This document shows, one piece after another, positions 3,570 to 19,067 of a stretch of DNA of 20,312 nucleotides (its first letter is position 1; each line of letters opens with the position of its first letter). Source of the stretch: a virus; the IMG/VR virus record IMGVR_UViG_3300047320_000076, positions 1 to 20,312 of that record. The stretch is one strand, 5' to 3'. Both the position numbers and the translations under genes were made by a program. Under the pieces are notes generated by a model. It did no database searches and had not been told where the DNA came from. It saw nothing but the letters and a program-made list of their open reading frames with translations.

Positions 3570-4061
3570 TCAGGCCAGCTTTCCGCCAGCCGCAATGTAG
3601 TAGGCAATCAGGTCAGGCAGCTTGTGCTCGCGCTGCCCATACCCTGCGCCTGGCAGCGATGCCCAAATGTTGTTGCATTTGCCGATGGCAGCCTCGATGC
3701 GACCCGCCTGCACGTCAGGCAGCGCCCGGCACTCCCTGATGTGCTGCAAGGCCAGCTTGTCTTGGCTGGCTGGACCGAAGTCCGGCAGCTTCAGCAGCTC
3801 CTTGTAATGCGGCCAGTCCTTTTTCATCTGCTGATACCGGCCGGCGGCCGTCGACTTCAAGCCCTTGCTGTTGACGGTGACCATGATGCCGGGGTGATCG
3901 GCGTAGCTGGTGAAGGTGTTGGGGCTGTCAATGCCGCCAACAATCACGTCATAGCCGTTGTTCTTGGTGTGTCTACTGGTCGACGTACCCTCTGCAAAGG
4001 CGATCATGTCGAGAAATGCAGCTTGATTTGTTAACTCTTGCCTTTGAACGGGTGATTGCAC
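3570..4061 (-). CDS. Endolysin, lambda-R-like lytic transglycosylase (GH104)
   Basis: A muralytic enzyme that cleaves the glycan backbone for host lysis. The 163-aa product matches the lambda R pattern along its length: AFLDMIAFAEGTSTSR (15-30, catalytic Glu24), NNGYDVIVGG, YADHPGIMVTVN, LKSTAAGRYQ (69-77), ALQHIRE, and NIWASLPGAGYGQREH (131-146). Lambda R is 158 aa, so the gene is complete. I choose the GTG at 4061 because GAGGA lies seven bases upstream; a TTG at 4085 is in frame but less likely. There is no signal peptide, so it should need a holin, and none is visible nearby. It is the last gene of the late operon. It is unrelated to the GH19 fragment beyond the HNH gene. Confidence 0.92.
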   Translation of the reverse strand: MQSPVQRQELTNQAAFLDMIAFAEGTSTSRHTKNNGYDVIVGGIDSPNTFTSYADHPGIMVTVNSKGLKSTAAGRYQQMKKDWPHYKELLKLPDFGPASQDKLALQHIRECRALPDVQAGRIEAAIGKCNNIWASLPGAGYGQREHKLPDLIAYYIAAGGKLA

Positions 4062-4072
4062 GGTGCTATCCT
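4044..4072 (+). promoter_or_regulatory. Promoter of the first HNH gene, antisense in the endolysin 5' end
   Basis: TTGAAC (4044-4049), a 17-base spacer, and the extended -10 TGC-TATCCT (hexamer 4067-4072). It would give a leader of about 35 bases to the ATG at 4114. It overlaps the start codon region of the endolysin on the other strand. Confidence 0.55.
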
Positions 4073-4113
4073 CATACGGGCACAATTAGCGCGGATTTAT
4101 AAATGGAGTTCAC

Positions 4114-4836
4114 ATGAAGCTTATAGATTTGACGGGGCAGAAATTTGGACGGCTTACCGTCCTGCGCCAGGGGGAAACACGAAAAAACGGCGGGTCAGAC
4201 TGGGTGTGCTTATGCGACTGCGGAGAGACCACGGTCGCGGTCGGATCTCGCATAAGGCTCGGCAAGACGAAATCTTGTGGGTGTCTTGGCATTGAGTGGG
4301 CGAAGTCGCTAGGGGCGAACAAGGTTTTTATTGAGAAGAGGGCGAACGCCCTGGTAGTCCACGGCCATAAGCGAAGGGGGTCAGCTTCAGTTGAATACAA
4401 AACATGGCTCGCCATGAAGCGGAGATGCTATGACCCTAAATGCAAGGACTACGCGAATTGGGGCGGTCGCGGGATAAAGGTTTGTGACCGATGGGTGAAG
4501 TCGTTCACCAACTTCTTCGAAGATATGGGGCTTAGGCCAGACGGCAATTACAGCATTGATAGGCTTAGGTCCAACGAGGATTACTCGCCAGATAATTGCC
4601 GCTGGGCAACCCTTGAAGAGCAGGGCGGCGAGAATCGTAGAGACCTTACATCTATAACGATTGGTGAATTGTCGTTCCATAGCATTGCCGCTGCGTGTAG
4701 ACACTTCGGCGTGAAGCTGACGACCGCCCACTACCGGATATCATCAGGGATACCAATCGAGCAGGCAGTATCTTTCAGCGGGCGACTCTCATCCCGTCGA
4801 GACAGAGAGTCCTACATCAGGAAGGATCTACGCTGA
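4114..4836 (+). CDS. Free-standing homing-type endonuclease (HNH/NUMOD-like)
   Basis: A 240-aa protein. It opens with IDLTGQKFGRLTVL (4-17) and a zinc-ribbon-like Cys set, CDCG (34-37) and CGCL (55-58). The central core holds YKTWLAMKRRCYD (95-107), WGGRGIKVCDRW (116-127), NYSIDR (145-150) and YSPDNCRWAT (157-166), a set common in phage endonucleases annotated as HNH or AP2-type. The C-terminus (181-219: SITIGELSFHSIAAACRHFG, then IPIEQA) resembles a NUMOD DNA-binding helix. Start 4114 follows GGAG five bases upstream. It is antisense to the late operon and has its own promoter. Its stop overlaps the truncated GH19 frame by nine bases, and its insertion point is a conserved endolysin motif. 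It is presumably a selfish element. Confidence 0.85.
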   Translation: MKLIDLTGQKFGRLTVLRQGETRKNGGSDWVCLCDCGETTVAVGSRIRLGKTKSCGCLGIEWAKSLGANKVFIEKRANALVVHGHKRRGSASVEYKTWLAMKRRCYDPKCKDYANWGGRGIKVCDRWVKSFTNFFEDMGLRPDGNYSIDRLRSNEDYSPDNCRWATLEEQGGENRRDLTSITIGELSFHSIAAACRHFGVKLTTAHYRISSGIPIEQAVSFSGRLSSRRDRESYIRKDLR

Positions 4837-5118
4837 AAACCGATACTTCTGCCCGTCTCCGTCAGCCTCTGGCGTGTTGCCCAGGCGCGCAGCCAGAGTG
4901 CCGGTGTCGTACTTGCTCAGGTACTGGTCACCGCCAAACTCGCACACGTAGCGGAACTGGCCGGACTCATGGCCGACCTGCGCGATGAAGGCAGCCATGC
5001 GAAGGCGCGTATTGATCTGGTACTTGCCCATGGCCAGCGTGAGCGCAGACGCAAAAACGCCAGCCTGCTTGCCGGCGTTCGGGAGGATCTGCAGCAGCTG
5101 CTGCGAAGTAATCGGCAT
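4828..5118 (-). pseudogene. GH19 endolysin, N-terminal fragment truncated at the HNH gene
   Basis: Residues 1-93 match the start of phage GH19 chitinase-like endolysins: ITSQQLLQILPNAG (3-16), INTRLRMAAFIAQVGHESGQ (35-54, catalytic Glu51 in HES), and YLSKYDTGTLAARLGN ending in DGDGQKYR. In the family, KYR is followed by GRGLIQITG. Here it is followed by three foreign codons (FSA) and a stop that lie in the HNH gene's 3' end. About half of a normal ~190-200 aa enzyme is missing and is not present elsewhere in the window. GGAG six bases before the ATG is intact, so a 96-aa peptide may be made, but without the second catalytic half it should be inactive. Confidence 0.85.
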
Positions 5119-5175: not shown

Positions 5176-7314
5176 TTAGTTTTCTGCGGTCAACTTGGCA
5201 GTCCATCCAAAGATAGCGGTTGTCGCCCCAGGGTCGACGTTGACGTTGATCGTGAACGTCGTTGCCGTGTTAGCGCTCACCCAGAACTTCATAGCGTTGC
5301 CACCGCTGTTTGTAAGGTGCGGCTTGATCCCGTTAAGGCTTGGCGTGCCGGAAAGTCCGTGCGTAACAACAATCGAAGTAGCTCCAGAGGCGATGGTAGC
5401 CGTGCCCTGGGAAGCGCCCACGAAACCAATATTGTGATCGATGCGAGTAGCCGCACCACTCGTCGAAAGTGCCAGCGTCGTATTGCCGCGAACGTCGTTA
5501 TTGATGATTCGGTTGTTGTCGCTGCCTGCATCCTCGACGATTCCGTTGTTGTTGCCGTAGCAGGTGATGTCGCCAACGGTAACGCCCTCGGCGTTGGTGA
5601 GGCGCAGGCCGGTGGATGTGCAGCCGTACAGCGTTCCGCCTGTTACAGAGCCGTATCGCGCAGGTTTGCTGGCCGCGCCGAGCTGCACGCCGTGCTGGCC
5701 CGTTCCAGAGACGCGCGGGTTGCTAATCTCGAACCAGTCGACGTTTTGCAGGATTATCCCTGACGAAACTTGACCACCCGTGCCGCGCAGCGGATGAATG
5801 CGCGGATTGTTGATGGTGACGTACTGGGAGTCTTCGATCAGGAACCCGCGCAAAGCATCGTAAGCAGTGAAGTTGTCGATCTGGATGTCACGGCAGCCGA
5901 CGATGCGGGCGCAGTAGTCGCCGTTTTCAACACACTGTCCGGTGATGTTCGACACCTTAATATCGGCTACGCGCTTGGTCAGGCCGTCGTCGGTGAAGTA
6001 GAACGCAAAGCCGCCTGCGTTGATCCGCCCGACTTTTCCGACAATGTTCGAGATATTGACCCGGCGAACACGGGTGGTTGTCTCTGGCCGGATATGGATC
6101 TTGATCAGGCTGGACTGCCCGGTGTCCAGCGAGCAGTTGGTGACGACGACATCCTCAATGTCGCCAAGGTCGTCGACTACGGCCACTTCTTGAGTAAAGG
6201 CAATGCAGTCATCGCCAGTCTTGATGCGGCAGTTGGCAATGACGATGTTGCTGCTCTTGCCCTTGAAGTGGATTCCATCCGTCAGTACCGCGGTCGAACC
6301 GACGTCAATGGCGATTCCGTCAATAAGGACGTTCGTGCAGTTCTGAAACTTGGTCGTCCAGTCGTTGTAAGTGTTGAGGATGCGGATGTTGAGGATGCGG
6401 ATGTTGTCGCAGTTGAAGAAAACGAGGTGCTTGCCGACCCGGCCGCCGTAGGTTCCGCCAGTGACTGCCGACTTGATGGCGCCGTGCCCATAGATCAGGA
6501 TGCCACTCTTACCGGTGGCGTCACCCTTGTTCTTGATAGTGCCTGTGTATGTATCGATGCCCTCGAAGTCTTTAATCAGCGTGCAACCCGCCGGCAGGTA
6601 CAGGCGCGAACTGTTTCCGAGCTGAAGCGGTGCCGACAATCGCATGTCGCGATTGGCCATGACCGCGACAAGATTCATCGACTCAGCGAGGTCGATGGCG
6701 GCCTGTGCTGCGGCGGACCAGTCCCAGGTGGTGGCGTCGGCGGGGTTCGGCTTCACAATTAGGCTGTAGAACTCGCGAACGTCTACATTGCGGGAGTTGA
6801 ACACGTCGCCAGCGTCGTTAATTGCCTCGCTTAGCGCGGTTCGCCCCCATCCTACCTTGGAGCCACCAGCGGTGGTCGCCAGCTCCTGGCGCAGCGCCGC
6901 ATCGCCAACCGAAACCAGCTTGGCCGAATCGGTCGCCCAAACTCCGGTTGTCGTCCACGGCAGAGTGCCGGCTTTGGCCTTGTACAGTTCGGAATTGTAC
7001 TGAACGAGCTGAGTCACGCGAGTCAGGGCGATGCTGGCAGCATACGGCACCGGGGCTTCATAGCCTCGGTTCGCCTCTGATGCGGCGTAGTCAGCTGCGC
7101 GCTGTGCCTGGGCTGCGTTGAAGTCATCGGCTCGCTGAGCCTGGGCGGCCGCAAACGACGCCTCGATGCCGGCCCACGACAGGCGGTTGACGCCGCGACG
7201 ATCCGGGTAACTGAGCAGCGGCCCAAGGATCAGATAGTCGATGTTCTGCGCGTTGTCGATCAGGTCCTTCGGGTTGGTGCTGCCGATCGGGTTTAACGTG
7301 GCGTATATGGTCAT
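5176..7314 (-). CDS. Tailspike / tail fibre with right-handed beta-helix (GH28-like)
   Basis: A 712-aa receptor-binding protein that probably recognises or degrades surface polysaccharide. Residues 1-45 look like a virion-attachment adaptor (NPIGSTNPKDLIDNAQN). Residues ~50-83 are a short coiled coil built on AQAQRA repeats. From ~180 (VREFYSL) to ~630 lies a parallel beta-helix with regular N-x-x-I rungs. TDGIH (345-349) and RIKTGDDCIAF (363-373) match polygalacturonase (GH28) active-site motifs, but the later GHG and RIK motifs are not evident. The last ~75 residues (640-712) form a beta-rich C-terminal module with THGLSGTP, typical of trimeric tail proteins. The ATG overlaps the stop of the upstream micro-ORF. 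It is followed by a terminator. Confidence 0.9.
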   Translation of the reverse strand: MTIYATLNPIGSTNPKDLIDNAQNIDYLILGPLLSYPDRRGVNRLSWAGIEASFAAAQAQRADDFNAAQAQRAADYAASEANRGYEAPVPYAASIALTRVTQLVQYNSELYKAKAGTLPWTTTGVWATDSAKLVSVGDAALRQELATTAGGSKVGWGRTALSEAINDAGDVFNSRNVDVREFYSLIVKPNPADATTWDWSAAAQAAIDLAESMNLVAVMANRDMRLSAPLQLGNSSRLYLPAGCTLIKDFEGIDTYTGTIKNKGDATGKSGILIYGHGAIKSAVTGGTYGGRVGKHLVFFNCDNIRILNIRILNTYNDWTTKFQNCTNVLIDGIAIDVGSTAVLTDGIHFKGKSSNIVIANCRIKTGDDCIAFTQEVAVVDDLGDIEDVVVTNCSLDTGQSSLIKIHIRPETTTRVRRVNISNIVGKVGRINAGGFAFYFTDDGLTKRVADIKVSNITGQCVENGDYCARIVGCRDIQIDNFTAYDALRGFLIEDSQYVTINNPRIHPLRGTGGQVSSGIILQNVDWFEISNPRVSGTGQHGVQLGAASKPARYGSVTGGTLYGCTSTGLRLTNAEGVTVGDITCYGNNNGIVEDAGSDNNRIINNDVRGNTTLALSTSGAATRIDHNIGFVGASQGTATIASGATSIVVTHGLSGTPSLNGIKPHLTNSGGNAMKFWVSANTATTFTINVNVDPGATTAIFGWTAKLTAEN

Positions 7315-11809: not shown

Positions 11810-14800
11810 TTAGACACCTTGTGACTGCAAGCCGTACTTCTCTTGATTCACCTGGTGCATCTCTTTCTCGCCGCGAATGTTGGACACGTAGATGTCGACG
11901 ACGTCCTGCTCGGTGAGCTGGCGACGACTGGTCTGCCCTGCCCGGCTGGCGTCCTCGATCAGGTTGAAGACCATCGGCCGCTCCGGCGCCGGAACGCCAT
12001 TGCTGGCCGCCGTCGACGCACTGTTGCCGCCGGACGTTGAGCGACCGGCTGAAACGTTGCCATTGCGCAGCGCCTCCACCGATGCCACGCCGCCATACTT
12101 GCGAATGTCGGATTGCGACCAGACGATCTCGCCCTTGTGGACGGTGCCCGCTGGATCGTTCACGCCGCCGGCGCCGGTATAGCCACCACCGGAGAAACCG
12201 ACGCCGGCAATGTTGGCGACGTTGGCCGCGGTGGCCACGCCAACCACGCCAGCCGCAATGAAGTTGAACGGTGGCGGGAATGCTGCGAGCGCCTTTTGAA
12301 TCGCCAGATAGCCGTCGATCGTGGCCTGAGCCATTGCGGCAGCCTTGCCGATCGCAGCCAGCTTGCTGTGACCGGACTGACTAAGTGTGGCCATGATCCC
12401 GAAAAAGCTCGACGACTGAGTGATGATCGCCGTGTTTTTGGCCTGCTCGATCTTGGCCCGGTTCTCGGCTGCCTGGGTGTTGATGTTGGCTACGCGCTCG
12501 GCATAGGTCTCTTCGTTGATCGCCTTGAGGTCGAGGTAGGCCTTTTGCTTTTCAAGCTCAGTGGCTCTCCACTGATCCAGTCGGGCCGACTCTTCATTCA
12601 GTCTAGTGATCTCGCTGTCAGCGCCACCGATGGACGGGTCAAGCCCGGTAGCGGTCGGCGCCTTGGTGACCCCCTCAATGGTCCCAGGCTTCTGCGCAGC
12701 GTTGAGGTTGATGTCGCGGATCTTGATCAGTGTTTCCAGGCGCTTGGCGGCCTCGGTGTTGCCCTGGCGCTCGTACTCAGCCATTTGCGCAGCATCGTCC
12801 AGGCTGGACTTCAGCTGGTTCGCCTCGCGCAGCTGACCGGTCAGGGTCAGCAGCTTGACCTGATCGTCGTTCGCCTGCTTGATGCCCTTCTGAATCTCGG
12901 CCTCACGCTCAAGGCCAGCATTCTTCTTCAGCTGTGCGGTGATCAGATCCTGGCTGGCCAGTAGCGACTTCTGGTCTGCGGTCAGAGTCTGCTTGCCCTT
13001 GATATCGGCGAGCTGCTGCTCCCACTTGATCAGCGCCTGCGCCTGAGCCCCGACCTTCTCGGTGGCGATGCCTTGGCCATTGATAGATGCGAGTTGCTGG
13101 GTTAGAACGGCATTGGTCTGCCGTGCCACGCCCAGCATCTTCAGGCCGGCGTCTTCGGTGACAGCCTTGGTCGCCGCCGCCTTGGGCTCTTTGAACTTGT
13201 CGCGAACCGCCTTTTCGGACGCATCGGCGTCGGCTTGGGTGATCGTGTAGCCGGCCGCCCGCGCCGCATTGATTCGCTGCTGATCTTCGAGCAGGGCCTT
13301 GTTCAGCTTCTGCTCGCGAGTTCCGCCGGCCTCGATGCCCTTCTGGAAGTCCTCGTAGGCCTTCTGCCCGTCGCGCTGAATCCTGGCCTTTTCACCTTCG
13401 GCCTTGCCCTGATCGGCGAGCAGCAATTTCTGCTTTTCAAGGAGGTTGAGGCGCGTCTGCAGGAACCGGGTCGAATCGCTGCCTTCGCCGAGCGTATCGG
13501 GAAACATTTTCGCCGCGAAGCTGGTCTTGCGATCCTCCAGCAGCTGTTTGGTATTGGCGATCTGCTCGTCGAGCGACTGCTGACGACCGACACCGAGCAT
13601 GGCATCCCAGCCGCTTTTCGCCGCGCCAGTGATCGCATTCCAGGCGGTTTCTATGGTGCCAAGGCTCTCCTTGATGGTCTTGGTTCGGGCTTCCAGCGCC
13701 TTCGCGTAGGCATCTTGGGCAATTGTCGCCGCCGCTTCCTTCTCGCCCATTTCTTGAGCCGCGCGCACCTGCTCGTAAATAGACGCGGTGAGAAAGTTGT
13801 ATTTGTCATTGAGCGTGGCCAGCGCCTTGACTGGATCTTCTGCCAGGGAAGCGAATTCGGCGACAGTGGCCGATACCGCCTTGCCGGTGACCTGCTCGAA
13901 GCCGATGGCGGCTGTGGCGATCTGCTCAAAGCTGGAACTGGCAATCTTGCCGTTCGATGCCATCAGGGCCAGCGTCTCTGCAGCCTTTCCGGTAGTGCCG
14001 ACGGTCGCGCTAATGGTGGTTGCCATGCCGGCCAGGGCCAGCGACGACGTGCCTGAAGCGTTGCCGGTGGTGATGATCGCCTGCCGGAAGGCGTCCGCCT
14101 CTTGAGAGCCCTGATAGTAGGCCAGGCCCAGCGTGCCGACCGCCGCGGCTGCCACGGTGAACGGGTTGACCAGGCCGAGGACGTAGCCGCCCAATGCCTT
14201 GGCCGCCGGACCAGCGCCGCCGAACATATCCTTGAGCTGGCCGCCTTGCTGCAGGAACACGGTCAGCGGGTTCTGGCCACCCTGGAGCGACGTGGCGATG
14301 TCAGTGAATTGCGCCGGCACACCACGCAGGGCTGCAGCCGTCTGCTTGGCGGATATTCCGGTTTTGCTCAGGTCGGCGTTGAATCCAGTCAGGCCGTTTC
14401 GGGTTGCCGTGATCTTGGCCTGGTATTCGTCGAACGTGTCCTTGTCGAGCTTGCCTTCCTTGCGGTGCCTGGCGAGGGCCTGCTCTTGCTTGTCCAGATC
14501 ACCGAGGCGACGAGTTACCGGGTCGATTTGCCCGAGAAGCTGCTCCAGCTCGGCGCGCTCGTCGTCAACGGACTTGGTTGCCTTTTTCGTCGCCTCTGCC
14601 AGCTTTTCCTGGGACTGTGCAGCTGTATCGGTCTGCGCACGGTACGTCGACAGCGTCGAGGCGGCCGCGGTGAACGAACTGGATGCGCCGGAGATAGACC
14701 GCCCCATCGACTCCATGGCCTTGGCGGTAGCGTCCTGTTTGGCGTTGAGCGCCTGCAGCTCTTTGACGATCAACTGAGTATCGCGACTGATGCCGCCCAC

Positions 14801-15016
14801 AGCTTCGGACCAGGCCTTGCCGGTGCGTCCTGCGGAAGTCTCGGCGCTCTTCCCGGAGTCCGTCAGCTTGTCGAGACCATCGCTGGCCTTGTCCATGGCG
14901 GGCTTGATGCGTAGGCCGGCATCCTCAAGGGCGCCGAGCGCATCGCGAACATCTTCCGCCTTTTTCTCAGCGTCTCGGCTGTCCAGCTCAATGACGAGGC
15001 GGGATGTTTGGACCAT
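11810..15016 (-). CDS. Tail length tape measure protein (lambda gpH-like)
   Basis: A 1068-aa protein that sets tail length and is ejected with the DNA. The N-terminal half is helical. RGVPAQFTDIATSLQGGQNP followed by LTVFLQQGGQLKDMFGG (231-267) is the hallmark of lambda-type tape measures. A hydrophobic stretch (~272-300, ALGGYVLGLVNPFTVAAAAV) may cross the host inner membrane. Coiled coils rich in Lys, Glu, Gln and Ala cover ~480-830. The C-terminus carries the conserved pattern GGGYTGAGG, then DPAGTVHKGEIVW, and a final basic/helical segment. Start 15016 has GGAG seven bases upstream. A terminator (15034-15055) separates it from the lipoprotein gene upstream. Confidence 0.95.
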   Translation of the reverse strand: MVQTSRLVIELDSRDAEKKAEDVRDALGALEDAGLRIKPAMDKASDGLDKLTDSGKSAETSAGRTGKAWSEAVGGISRDTQLIVKELQALNAKQDATAKAMESMGRSISGASSSFTAAASTLSTYRAQTDTAAQSQEKLAEATKKATKSVDDERAELEQLLGQIDPVTRRLGDLDKQEQALARHRKEGKLDKDTFDEYQAKITATRNGLTGFNADLSKTGISAKQTAAALRGVPAQFTDIATSLQGGQNPLTVFLQQGGQLKDMFGGAGPAAKALGGYVLGLVNPFTVAAAAVGTLGLAYYQGSQEADAFRQAIITTGNASGTSSLALAGMATTISATVGTTGKAAETLALMASNGKIASSSFEQIATAAIGFEQVTGKAVSATVAEFASLAEDPVKALATLNDKYNFLTASIYEQVRAAQEMGEKEAAATIAQDAYAKALEARTKTIKESLGTIETAWNAITGAAKSGWDAMLGVGRQQSLDEQIANTKQLLEDRKTSFAAKMFPDTLGEGSDSTRFLQTRLNLLEKQKLLLADQGKAEGEKARIQRDGQKAYEDFQKGIEAGGTREQKLNKALLEDQQRINAARAAGYTITQADADASEKAVRDKFKEPKAAATKAVTEDAGLKMLGVARQTNAVLTQQLASINGQGIATEKVGAQAQALIKWEQQLADIKGKQTLTADQKSLLASQDLITAQLKKNAGLEREAEIQKGIKQANDDQVKLLTLTGQLREANQLKSSLDDAAQMAEYERQGNTEAAKRLETLIKIRDINLNAAQKPGTIEGVTKAPTATGLDPSIGGADSEITRLNEESARLDQWRATELEKQKAYLDLKAINEETYAERVANINTQAAENRAKIEQAKNTAIITQSSSFFGIMATLSQSGHSKLAAIGKAAAMAQATIDGYLAIQKALAAFPPPFNFIAAGVVGVATAANVANIAGVGFSGGGYTGAGGVNDPAGTVHKGEIVWSQSDIRKYGGVASVEALRNGNVSAGRSTSGGNSASTAASNGVPAPERPMVFNLIEDASRAGQTSRRQLTEQDVVDIYVSNIRGEKEMHQVNQEKYGLQSQGV

Positions 15017-15033: not shown

Positions 15034-15055
15034 AAAAAAACCCGCCGGAGCGGGT
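15034..15055 (-). terminator. Terminator downstream of the lipoprotein gene
   Basis: ACCCGC (15050-15055) pairs with GCGGGT (15040-15045) around a four-base loop, followed by seven T on the - strand. It follows the lipoprotein stop by ~20 bases and precedes the tape-measure start, so late transcription must pass through it. Confidence 0.8.
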
Positions 15056-15073
15056 CTTGGTAATTTGTTGACC

Positions 15074-15646
15074 TTATCGAATGCAGGTCTCGATCTCTTC
15101 AGCAACGGCGTTCAGCGAGCGCGCGACATCCTCAGAGCCGCCGCCCATCATCACATGCACGGGGCTGTAGCCCGCGTTGACCATGGAGCCGGTATCGAGT
15201 TGCGCTTGCTGAATGCCGGCGAACAGGTATTTCCTTTCAGGCCCTGAATTCTTGATGGTCACGGTGTAGCGAACAGATCGCGAAACCATGGCGCTTGTAT
15301 AGCCTGTCTCGCCCTTGGCCACGACGCTGGACTCATCGGGCGCCACGTACTGGATGGCACCGCCGCCACCGACTTCGCGGTTGGTTCCTGCTTGGTAATA
15401 GTTGCCCGTGTGCACGCCAATGAAGGTTTTCGACGAGTCGCTGAGCGATACCGGGTCATTCCTGACAGCACCGGCTGCGCACATGGCCATCTTTCCGGGT
15501 GCCGCCTGGCCCGAGCCGCTCACCTCGAATGACTTGAGGTAATTGCCGTCAAGCCCTGGCTCGCCGTACTTGTAAAGGTTTTGGGTGCCAGAGGCGCACC
15601 CGCCAAGAGTGACCAACACCAACACAACCGCTGCAATCCTGAACAT
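15074..15646 (-). CDS. Lipoprotein cargo gene (moron) inside the tail operon
   Basis: A 190-aa protein with a type II signal peptide: MFR, a hydrophobic run IAAVVLVLVTL, and lipobox LGGC with the lipidated Cys at 17. The mature part (SGTQNLYKYGEPGLDGNYL onwards) is beta-rich, with a Gly-rich patch REVGGGGAIQYVAPDESS (~90-107), MVSRSVRYTVTIKNSG (~119-134) and a helical end. Tail assembly genes are not exported, so this protein acts in the host envelope, perhaps in surface modification or superinfection exclusion; no family is recognised. It has its own promoter (15663-15682) and terminator (15034-15055), the marks of a lysogenically expressed moron. Start 15646 has GGGAG six bases upstream. 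Confidence 0.85.
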   Translation of the reverse strand: MFRIAAVVLVLVTLGGCASGTQNLYKYGEPGLDGNYLKSFEVSGSGQAAPGKMAMCAAGAVRNDPVSLSDSSKTFIGVHTGNYYQAGTNREVGGGGAIQYVAPDESSVVAKGETGYTSAMVSRSVRYTVTIKNSGPERKYLFAGIQQAQLDTGSMVNAGYSPVHVMMGGGSEDVARSLNAVAEEIETCIR

Positions 15647-15662
15647 TCCGTTTCTCCCTTGC

Positions 15663-15686
15663 GTGATGCGATCAATATAGCATCAC
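15663..15686 (-). promoter_or_regulatory. Extended -10 promoter within an inverted repeat (moron promoter/operator)
   Basis: On the - strand, TGC-TATATT (hexamer at 15674-15679) is an extended -10 element. It is enclosed by a perfect 7-bp inverted repeat, GTGATGC (15663-15669) and GCATCAC (15680-15686), on the + strand. No good -35 is visible at 17 bases, as is usual for extended -10 promoters. It lies just upstream of the lipoprotein gene. Confidence 0.55.
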
Positions 15687-15697
15687 ACAAGCGCGGT

Positions 15698-16018
15698 TCA
15701 TTCTTCCTCTTCTGCTTTTAGGCACAGCGCATCGAGGGTGTAGACCACTTCGTCAATCTCGCTGCGCGGCATGGCTGGCGGGTGCGCCTCCAGCCAATCC
15801 GAAATTTCCCGGGCCGACAGCGGCAGCGGGAAGGCACCAGCCATCGACGAGACAAACCGGCGCCCGCGTGTGATGTTGCGGAACGTGCTCAGCAGATAGC
15901 TGGTCATCGGGTCCGTTTCCGGCTCATCCGGGACCGCCATCTTCAGCCGCTGATAGATCAGTCTGCGCTTTTCGGTGTCTCCGCCCCACTCTCGCTCCCA
16001 CTCGAAGCGGGCAACGAC
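15698..16018 (-). CDS. Tail assembly chaperone gpT part, made as gpGT by -1 frameshift
   Basis: From the slippery site at 16018-16024 the -1 frame continues as VVARFEWEREWGGD and then LIYQRLKMAVPDEPETDP to a stop at 15698, adding 106 residues to the first 137 of gpG (243 aa total). An internal ATG at 15940 gives only an 80-aa start, and no ribosome-binding site justifies it. The 26 codons between the slip site and that ATG are coding in style, which supports the fusion. In lambda, gpGT bridges the tape measure and the tail tube protein and is absent from the finished tail. The order gpG, gpGT, tape measure is conserved here, apart from the inserted lipoprotein gene. Confidence 0.88.
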   Translation of the reverse strand, partial: VVARFEWEREWGGDTEKRRLIYQRLKMAVPDEPETDPMTSYLLSTFRNITRGRRFVSSMAGAFPLPLSAREISDWLEAHPPAMPRSEIDEVVYTLDALCLKAEEEE

Positions 16019-16428
16019 TTTCCCACGGTCTCAGCCAAGGCCTTTTGCGCCTCCACGGCCGATATCGACGACTCGCGCAGGACGAACAGGAAAAATTCGA
16101 GGTTGGCATCGAGCATCTGCTCGGCAGATCCGGCGCTGTACGCCAGCGGGTTGCCGTCCGCATCTTGCACGCCGGCCCAGTCCTTGACGATGAACTGGCT
16201 CAGTAGTCGGCACTGGGTCTGGTGCTCGGTCGTCTCGCCGTCGATCACGCCCACGACACCGGTGCCGAACTGGGCGTCAGCATTGCGCAACTTGCGGCGT
16301 TCGCGCTCAAGGGCGACCGCGTATTCCGGGTTATCAATTCGTGCCAGCAACACTTTGGTGTCGTCGTCATAGGCGACCCACTTGGTTTCCGAGATGTTCT
16401 GGTCTTTCTTGGTCAGTCGCAAAGCCAT
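15958..16428 (-). CDS. Tail assembly chaperone gpG-like
   Basis: A 156-aa protein in the lambda G position, between the major tail protein and the tape measure. It starts MALRLTKKDQNISETKW and has a central helical region (EYAVALERERRKLRNADAQF). The second half contains VVGVIDGETTEHQTQCRLLS and a long helix (EQMLDANLEFFLFVLRESSI). The frame-0 C-terminus after the slip site is a low-complexity Ser/Glu/Ala tail, the usual appearance of unshifted gpG. It should coat the tape measure protein during assembly. Its stop lies inside the gpT reading frame. Confidence 0.85.
   Translation of the reverse strand: MALRLTKKDQNISETKWVAYDDDTKVLLARIDNPEYAVALERERRKLRNADAQFGTGVVGVIDGETTEHQTQCRLLSQFIVKDWAGVQDADGNPLAYSAGSAEQMLDANLEFFLFVLRESSISAVEAQKALAETVGKSLPASSGSESGAETPKSAD
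16018..16024 (-). promoter_or_regulatory. Programmed -1 frameshift slippery heptamer GGGAAAG
   Basis: On the - strand the heptamer reads G-GGA-AAG in the gpG frame (codons GGA AAG, Gly136-Lys137), the X-XXY-YYZ form. It is the same heptamer as used for lambda gpG/gpGT. The -1 frame is open from here through the T region to 15698. Confidence 0.9.
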
Positions 16429-18129: not shown

Positions 18130-18239
18130 TCTTGATGTATCCTTGTCGGTGCGGCTAGGGCATGCAACCCGAACATCTGGCTCATCACCGGACCGCCGCA
18201 ACCACCTTCAGTGATGACAACTCTTTGATGGAGAGTGAC
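18130..18239 (+). other. Leader region of the second HNH gene
   Basis: A 110-base stretch between the tail terminator start and the HNH start. It contains TATCCT (18138-18143) preceded by TG, echoing the -10 hexamer of the first HNH gene, but no convincing -35. It also carries the ribosome-binding site of the opposite-strand gene. I see no intron core or strong hairpin. Confidence 0.3.
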
Positions 18240-19067
18240 ATGCAAGAACTCTGGAAGCCGGTTGCCGGCTATGAAGCTATCTATGAAGTATCCAATCTCG
18301 GTCAAGTACGGTCTCTCGACCGCTTAGTCACCCATTCAAATGGAAGCGTGACTCGACGCGCCGGCCGAACTCTCGTTCAATGCCTTCGCGCTGGATATCC
18401 ATTCGTCAACCTTCAGGATCATGGCAGAAAGCGCATGGTGCATACCCACAGACTGGTCGCTGAGGCGTTCTGTGATCCCGTTGATGGTTGTAATGTGGTT
18501 AATCACCTTGACGGCAGCAGAGACAATAACGTCTGGACCAACCTTGAGTGGACGACATTCAAGGGCAATACACAGCACGCAGTCAGGACCGGCCTAATGG
18601 TTGCCGCTAGAGGCGAATCCTCTGGAGGCTCCACGCTTACAGGAGGCCAAGTTGACGAGATCCGTAGGCGCATAATTCTTGGCGAAAACGGAACAGCTCT
18701 CGGCAAGGAGTTCGGCGTAAAACCGATGTGCATCTCGGATATCAAGAACGGCAAAACATGGGCCAAGCATGGAGATCCGGAACTCGTTCGCCGATGCAAG
18801 GAGACGGACCAGTTTGTAGCTAAAGGCTCATCGCACGCCAAGTCGAAAATAACCGAGAAGGACGTGGAGCGAATCATCGTTATGCTGAAGGCCAGGGTCT
18901 TGCAAAAGGATATCGCCCGGGAGATCGGCTGCCACGAAATGACGGTTTGCCGAATCAATCTCGGCAAGGTATGGGTTCATGTTCGAGTCGATGGTTGCGG
19001 CGAGCCTCCGTATTTCATACTAAAGCCCAGGGCTCACCACTTAGCCGCGCTATCTATAAGCCTCTGA
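18240..19067 (+). CDS. NUMOD4/HNH homing-type endonuclease
   Basis: A 275-aa protein. The start at 18240 has GGAG about seven bases upstream; an earlier in-frame ATG at 18228 does not. Residues 4-27 (LWKPVAGYEAIYEVSNLGQV, then RSL) are a NUMOD4 motif. The HNH nuclease core is VHTHRLVAEAF (67-77, catalytic His70), NHLDGSRDNN (88-97) and NLEW (101-104). Two similar helix-turn-helix units follow (~131-174 and ~201-245), each opening with LT/IT and ending in a K-T/V-W motif; they probably give target specificity. The gene is antisense to the late operon. It sits exactly between the gpZ-like and gpU-like genes and overlaps the 3' end of the former by 18 bases. It is not related in sequence to the endonuclease at 4114. 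Confidence 0.88.
   Translation: MQELWKPVAGYEAIYEVSNLGQVRSLDRLVTHSNGSVTRRAGRTLVQCLRAGYPFVNLQDHGRKRMVHTHRLVAEAFCDPVDGCNVVNHLDGSRDNNVWTNLEWTTFKGNTQHAVRTGLMVAARGESSGGSTLTGGQVDEIRRRIILGENGTALGKEFGVKPMCISDIKNGKTWAKHGDPELVRRCKETDQFVAKGSSHAKSKITEKDVERIIVMLKARVLQKDIAREIGCHEMTVCRINLGKVWVHVRVDGCGEPPYFILKPRAHHLAALSISL

Follow-up and report, generated by a model that had tools for sequence, protein, structure and literature searches.

The gp15 protein of HK97 is the annotated product of a moron and has been described, from experiments, as an exclusion protein (PMC10883804). Lipoproteins are involved in two other described systems: Ltp of phage TP-J34 targets the tape measure protein (TMP) of the invading phage (PMC3952083), and the mEpimmI lipoproteins of coliphages, encoded within a structural gene cluster, exclude phages (PMC11893012).

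We analysed a lipoprotein gene, hereafter lipA, in a stretch of 20,312 nucleotides of viral DNA (the window). The lipA cassette occupies a cargo slot in a temperate siphophage that probably infects Pseudomonas, with the tail chaperone genes on one side and the TMP gene on the other; a tyrosine integrase gene is also present on the same record. Judging from the sequence, lipA is almost certainly a moron with an envelope lipoprotein as its product. We consider it probable that this moron is exchangeable and expressed from the prophage, and that its envelope product serves most likely for superinfection exclusion.

The lipA gene and its signals

According to the preliminary description, a lipoprotein gene follows gpT and precedes the tape measure gene. 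Both borders were identified by profile matches (Table 1), the slippery heptamer of the lambda type being in the correct phase for the -1 shift from gpG to gpT. In the ORF translation the N-terminus, MFRIAAVVLVLVTLGGC followed by ASG, is a textbook lipoprotein signal.

Table 1. Features of the lipA cassette and of the borders of its slot (positions in the window).
Feature	Position	Strand	Remarks
TMP, 3' border of the slot	11810..15016	-	PF06791 (E=1e-75), PF24622; phrog_24
Intrinsic terminator GACCCGC-TCCG-GCGGGTT-TTTTT	15034..15056	-	fold z -3.87; 26/27 loci
Lipoprotein gene lipA, 190 aa	15074..15646	-	phrog_29243; signal peptide, lipobox LGGC, Cys17, invariant Cys56/Cys188, TGNYY 80-84
7-bp inverted repeat enclosing the -10 (GTGATGC-N10-GCATCAC)	15663..15686		chance-level repeat class
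Extended -10 promoter, TGcTATATT, no -35	15674..15682	-	unchanged in all 10 close relatives
gpT frame, 5' border of the slot	15698..15940	-	phrog_1189; -1 frame after GGGAAAG
gpG tail assembly chaperone	15958..16428	-	phrog_313; slippery GGGAAAG at 16024-16018

The protein matched the phrog_29243 profile along its full length (residues 5-189, E 3.5e-29); all 24 members matched as well. The family, previously called unrecognised, thus has a PHROG entry, albeit one without function. Profile searches gave no Pfam (PF14373 included), NCBIfam or PADLOC assignment, and tblastn with four divergent family members against 50,697 annotated phages returned zero matches, so that no isolate of that collection carries lipA. 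Two candidate matches were rejected. One, to a LysM protein in a sequence search of the PDB, was marginal only. The other, to Cor (phrog_1119), was the sole match to an exclusion family and was confined to the signal peptide region (residues 1-33 at most), the mature protein being unmatched.

We collected about 30 relatives of lipA (28-97% identity) from IMG/VR, one Klebsiella record and one Methylotenera bin. A lipobox was found in every intact relative examined, and Cys17, Cys56, Cys188 and the TGNYY motif were invariant across 25 aligned sequences. The dN/dS ratio of about 0.12 among 10 close homologues indicated purifying selection. The product is predicted to be exported and lipidated at Cys17, and it would probably be sorted to the outer membrane, facing the periplasm, because Asp is absent at position +2; Cys56 and Cys188 could be linked by a disulphide. 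The reading frame is broken in the Klebsiella copy (NZ_LR134281, L011:8700-9306), whose record is titled as a plasmid and has a phage-like gene order, and intact copies are present in L028 and L031.

The extended -10 promoter (TGCTATATT) reported upstream of lipA was recovered, and such an element was present within 70 nt upstream of the lipA-family gene at 19 of 27 loci, against 0.7% of control windows. The reported terminator was likewise recovered as a hairpin, with an equivalent at all of these loci but one, against 1% of controls. These 27 loci comprise 10 close copies and 17 divergent ones, among which alone the extended -10 was found in nine and the terminator in 16. A generic consensus scan of the window reported neither signal for lipA; the promoter was missed because the -35 hexamer is absent, and we think that the terminator was missed since an extension of the stem absorbs the U-tract. 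The transcription start had been put at 15679, which corresponds to the first base of the -10 element; we predict it near 15667. With its own promoter, lipA would be transcribed from an otherwise silent prophage, and the terminator would prevent this transcript from continuing into the tail operon.

The perfect 7-bp inverted repeat noted around the promoter does exist, but repeats of this size occur in the window at chance frequency (28 seen versus 23.8 +/- 5.6 expected). Its arms are imperfect in most relatives, and it is perfect again only before an unrelated gene in two loci (L066 and L080). The repeat is a dyad of promoter type, with no second copy in the phage records searched. We thus rejected it as an operator and do not find it convincing as evidence for one.

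Elsewhere in the window, two HNH homing-endonuclease genes (4114-4836 and 18162-19067, both on the + strand) lie opposite to the structural genes, and an Rfam search found no intron. By eye, a 96-aa ORF (4828-5118, - strand) resembles a GH19-type endolysin truncated after its N-terminal part, at the point where the HNH gene starts; it has no Pfam match and is followed by a second lysin ORF (3570-4085), lambda R-like by eye. The 712-aa product of 5176-7314 (- strand) is a candidate tail spike, for which matches to GH28 and to a right-handed beta-helix suggest a polysaccharide-cleaving activity.

Exchange of genes in the slot before the tape measure gene

Using gpG as bait, we read the interval between gpT and the TMP gene in 31 loci with 56-97% identical gpG. 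Phages with and without lipA at this locus, which the preliminary description had proposed to look for, were both found. The interval was empty in six loci. Eight loci carried the phrog_29243 lipoprotein there, four a lipoprotein unrelated to it, one a further unrelated lipoprotein, and two a secreted 121-aa protein. PF14373, the "superinfection immunity protein", occupied it in five loci and, truncated, in a sixth (L072); a Pfam match to this family was obtained for L058, L059 and L073 (E 1e-17 to 6e-19), and the remaining loci were assigned by near-identical sequence. The name of this family comes from a T4 protein, and exclusion by its members in the slot is putative. Multigene inserts were present in L059, L062 and L073, and the L081 locus ends before the slot content can be read. 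The junction between G-T and the TMP gene, which had been presented as a conserved block, is a known moron site, as in HK97, and a hotspot with interchangeable cargo in these phages.

A signal peptide, a lipobox or a transmembrane segment was found in all eight single-gene slot families checked, those of HK97 and of Pseudomonas syringae phages being counted. The second slot lipoprotein (L051) was rejected as a homologue of lipA, as the two share no likeness past the signal peptide; its predicted structure had a pLDDT of 39. The large inserts (L062:3915-5349, L059:3954-4523, L073:3956-4471) contain a recurrent ORF on the opposite strand, whose product is weakly aspartyl-protease-like in L059 and L073 (E about 0.01) and similar by eye in L062. 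The L062 insert also encodes a P-loop protein resembling by eye a zeta-type toxin, and the slot insert of Cruim01 carries a DUF2513 gene.

Most single-gene occupants stand behind a common promoter sequence, TGATGCTAWAWTG or near it. The presence of the same promoter before different cargo suggests that promoter and terminator belong to the slot and that the coding part is exchanged. The terminator was retained in five of the six empty loci (L060, L063, L064, L065 and L068), still directly before the TMP gene; late transcription of the tail genes must therefore either pass it by readthrough or rely on antitermination.

The position of lipA could also indicate a tail-related protein, either a virion component or an assembly factor obligatorily accompanying the TMP, and the place just upstream of the TMP gene is indeed kept at almost all divergent loci. 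At almost all lipA-family loci the next long ORF, just downstream, encodes 700-1300 aa, and TMP models were found among 21 such ORFs scanned (TMP_2 in four, TMP_3 in 13, TMP_4 in five and HK97_TLTM in five, with possible overlap). One small ORF separates the lipA-family gene from the long ORF in L024-L027, and no TMP gene follows in L042. Against a tail role, lipA is absent from sister phages with matching G, T and TMP types, it has its own promoter and terminator, and its lipobox is universal. Furthermore, the TMP N-terminus exists as two main alleles, each associated with more than one cargo, lipA included; slot content assorts independently of the TMP allele, and this free pairing argues against lipA as an assembly partner of the TMP. 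We thus regard a tail-related function as very improbable.

The moron reading put forward earlier agrees well with these data, since a promoter-ORF-terminator unit, presence and absence among relatives and an envelope-targeted product were all found by sequence. We propose more tentatively, as a possibility falling a little short of an even chance, that temperate siphophages in general use the chaperone-TMP junction as a modular slot for exclusion cargo, and that phrog_29243 represents an undescribed class of periplasmic lipoprotein blockers. In such a slot, unrelated envelope proteins, each blocking DNA entry by competitors, would be swapped between a constant promoter and a constant terminator. 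If so, reading slots across phages would list candidate envelope-level anti-phage proteins, the lipA family included, and the presence of a terminator right before the longest gene in tail operons of temperate phages would be explained.

Predicted structure and possible functions

The AlphaFold2 model of the lipA product, a confident one (pLDDT 84.7), suggested a domain with a helix-grip/TBP-like fold. With VIA-align, the best structural neighbours of this model were DUF4468 (PDB 4e6f; Z 10.8 over 137 residues), another TBP-like protein (Z 10.2) and BamC (Z 7.9). The Foldseek TM values were mostly below 0.5 for this predicted model, and a fold search of BFVD gave weak matches only. The predicted fold would fit a periplasmic lipoprotein and is silent on function or mechanism.

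Several functions can be considered for such a protein. A lysis or release helper, for instance a spanin-like outer-membrane lipoprotein located in the tail cluster by chance, comes to mind as spanins are common among outer-membrane lipoproteins of phages, and very weak matches to Rz-like families were seen at the level of the signal peptide. By contrast, about 165 aa of the lipA product are predicted to make up a folded domain, the lysis genes are distant, the promoter is of the constitutive type and lipA is dispensable in sister phages; this makes a lysis role the least credible of the functions considered here.

A prophage-expressed moron that aids the host otherwise, for example in envelope stress or outer-membrane assembly, by changing the surface or by giving resistance to predators, would have an anatomy identical to that of an exclusion moron. 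The resemblance of the predicted fold to BamC is in line with such a role, and the host-fitness roles of morons can vary. The PF14373 proteins and HK97 gp15, which substitute for lipA in the slot, point instead to exclusion, and we consider another benefit to the host rather unlikely. We favour superinfection exclusion for lipA because these slot neighbours and the described precedents point there, although the other cargo present in some inserts (L059, L062, L073, and DUF2513 in Cruim01) counts against it. The lipA product would then most likely obstruct DNA entry by a superinfecting siphophage, its target being possibly the tail tip or TMP channel, or a host factor needed by that channel.

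Comparison with known systems

HK97 gp15 is encoded in the slot that lipA occupies, after the frameshifted chaperone genes and before the TMP gene, by a short unit with an envelope product, and this unit ends in a near-identical hairpin terminator. In contrast to lipA, gp15 is a 62-aa YebO-like (PF13974) transmembrane protein of the inner membrane, unrelated in sequence to the lipoprotein. HK97-like TMPs follow phrog_29243 genes in L033 and L030 (44% and 49% identical, respectively, over about 800 residues), so that the same slot of a single tail type is taken by either of two unrelated envelope proteins. Slot, promoter sequence and TMP border are also the same for the PF14373 proteins of sister phages, which differ from lipA in being membrane proteins with a SHOCT tail and an unrelated sequence.

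Ltp of TP-J34 and Cor of phi80 and N15 are, like the lipA product, phage-encoded lipoproteins, and both are expressed from prophages. Ltp, likened here to the lipA product by description, acts in Gram-positive hosts, whereas Cor is only about 78 aa long and has no homology to the lipA product past the signal peptide. The mEpimmI lipoproteins Lpp021 and Lpp010, also likened by description, share with lipA the location of their genes within a structural cluster. BamC, an outer-membrane lipoprotein, and DUF4468 may resemble the lipA product in a helix-grip/TBP-like fold (for BamC, that of its N-terminal domain), a likeness of predicted fold with about 10% identity. The lipA family is new and the kind of site that it occupies was already known, the modular slot being the richer result.
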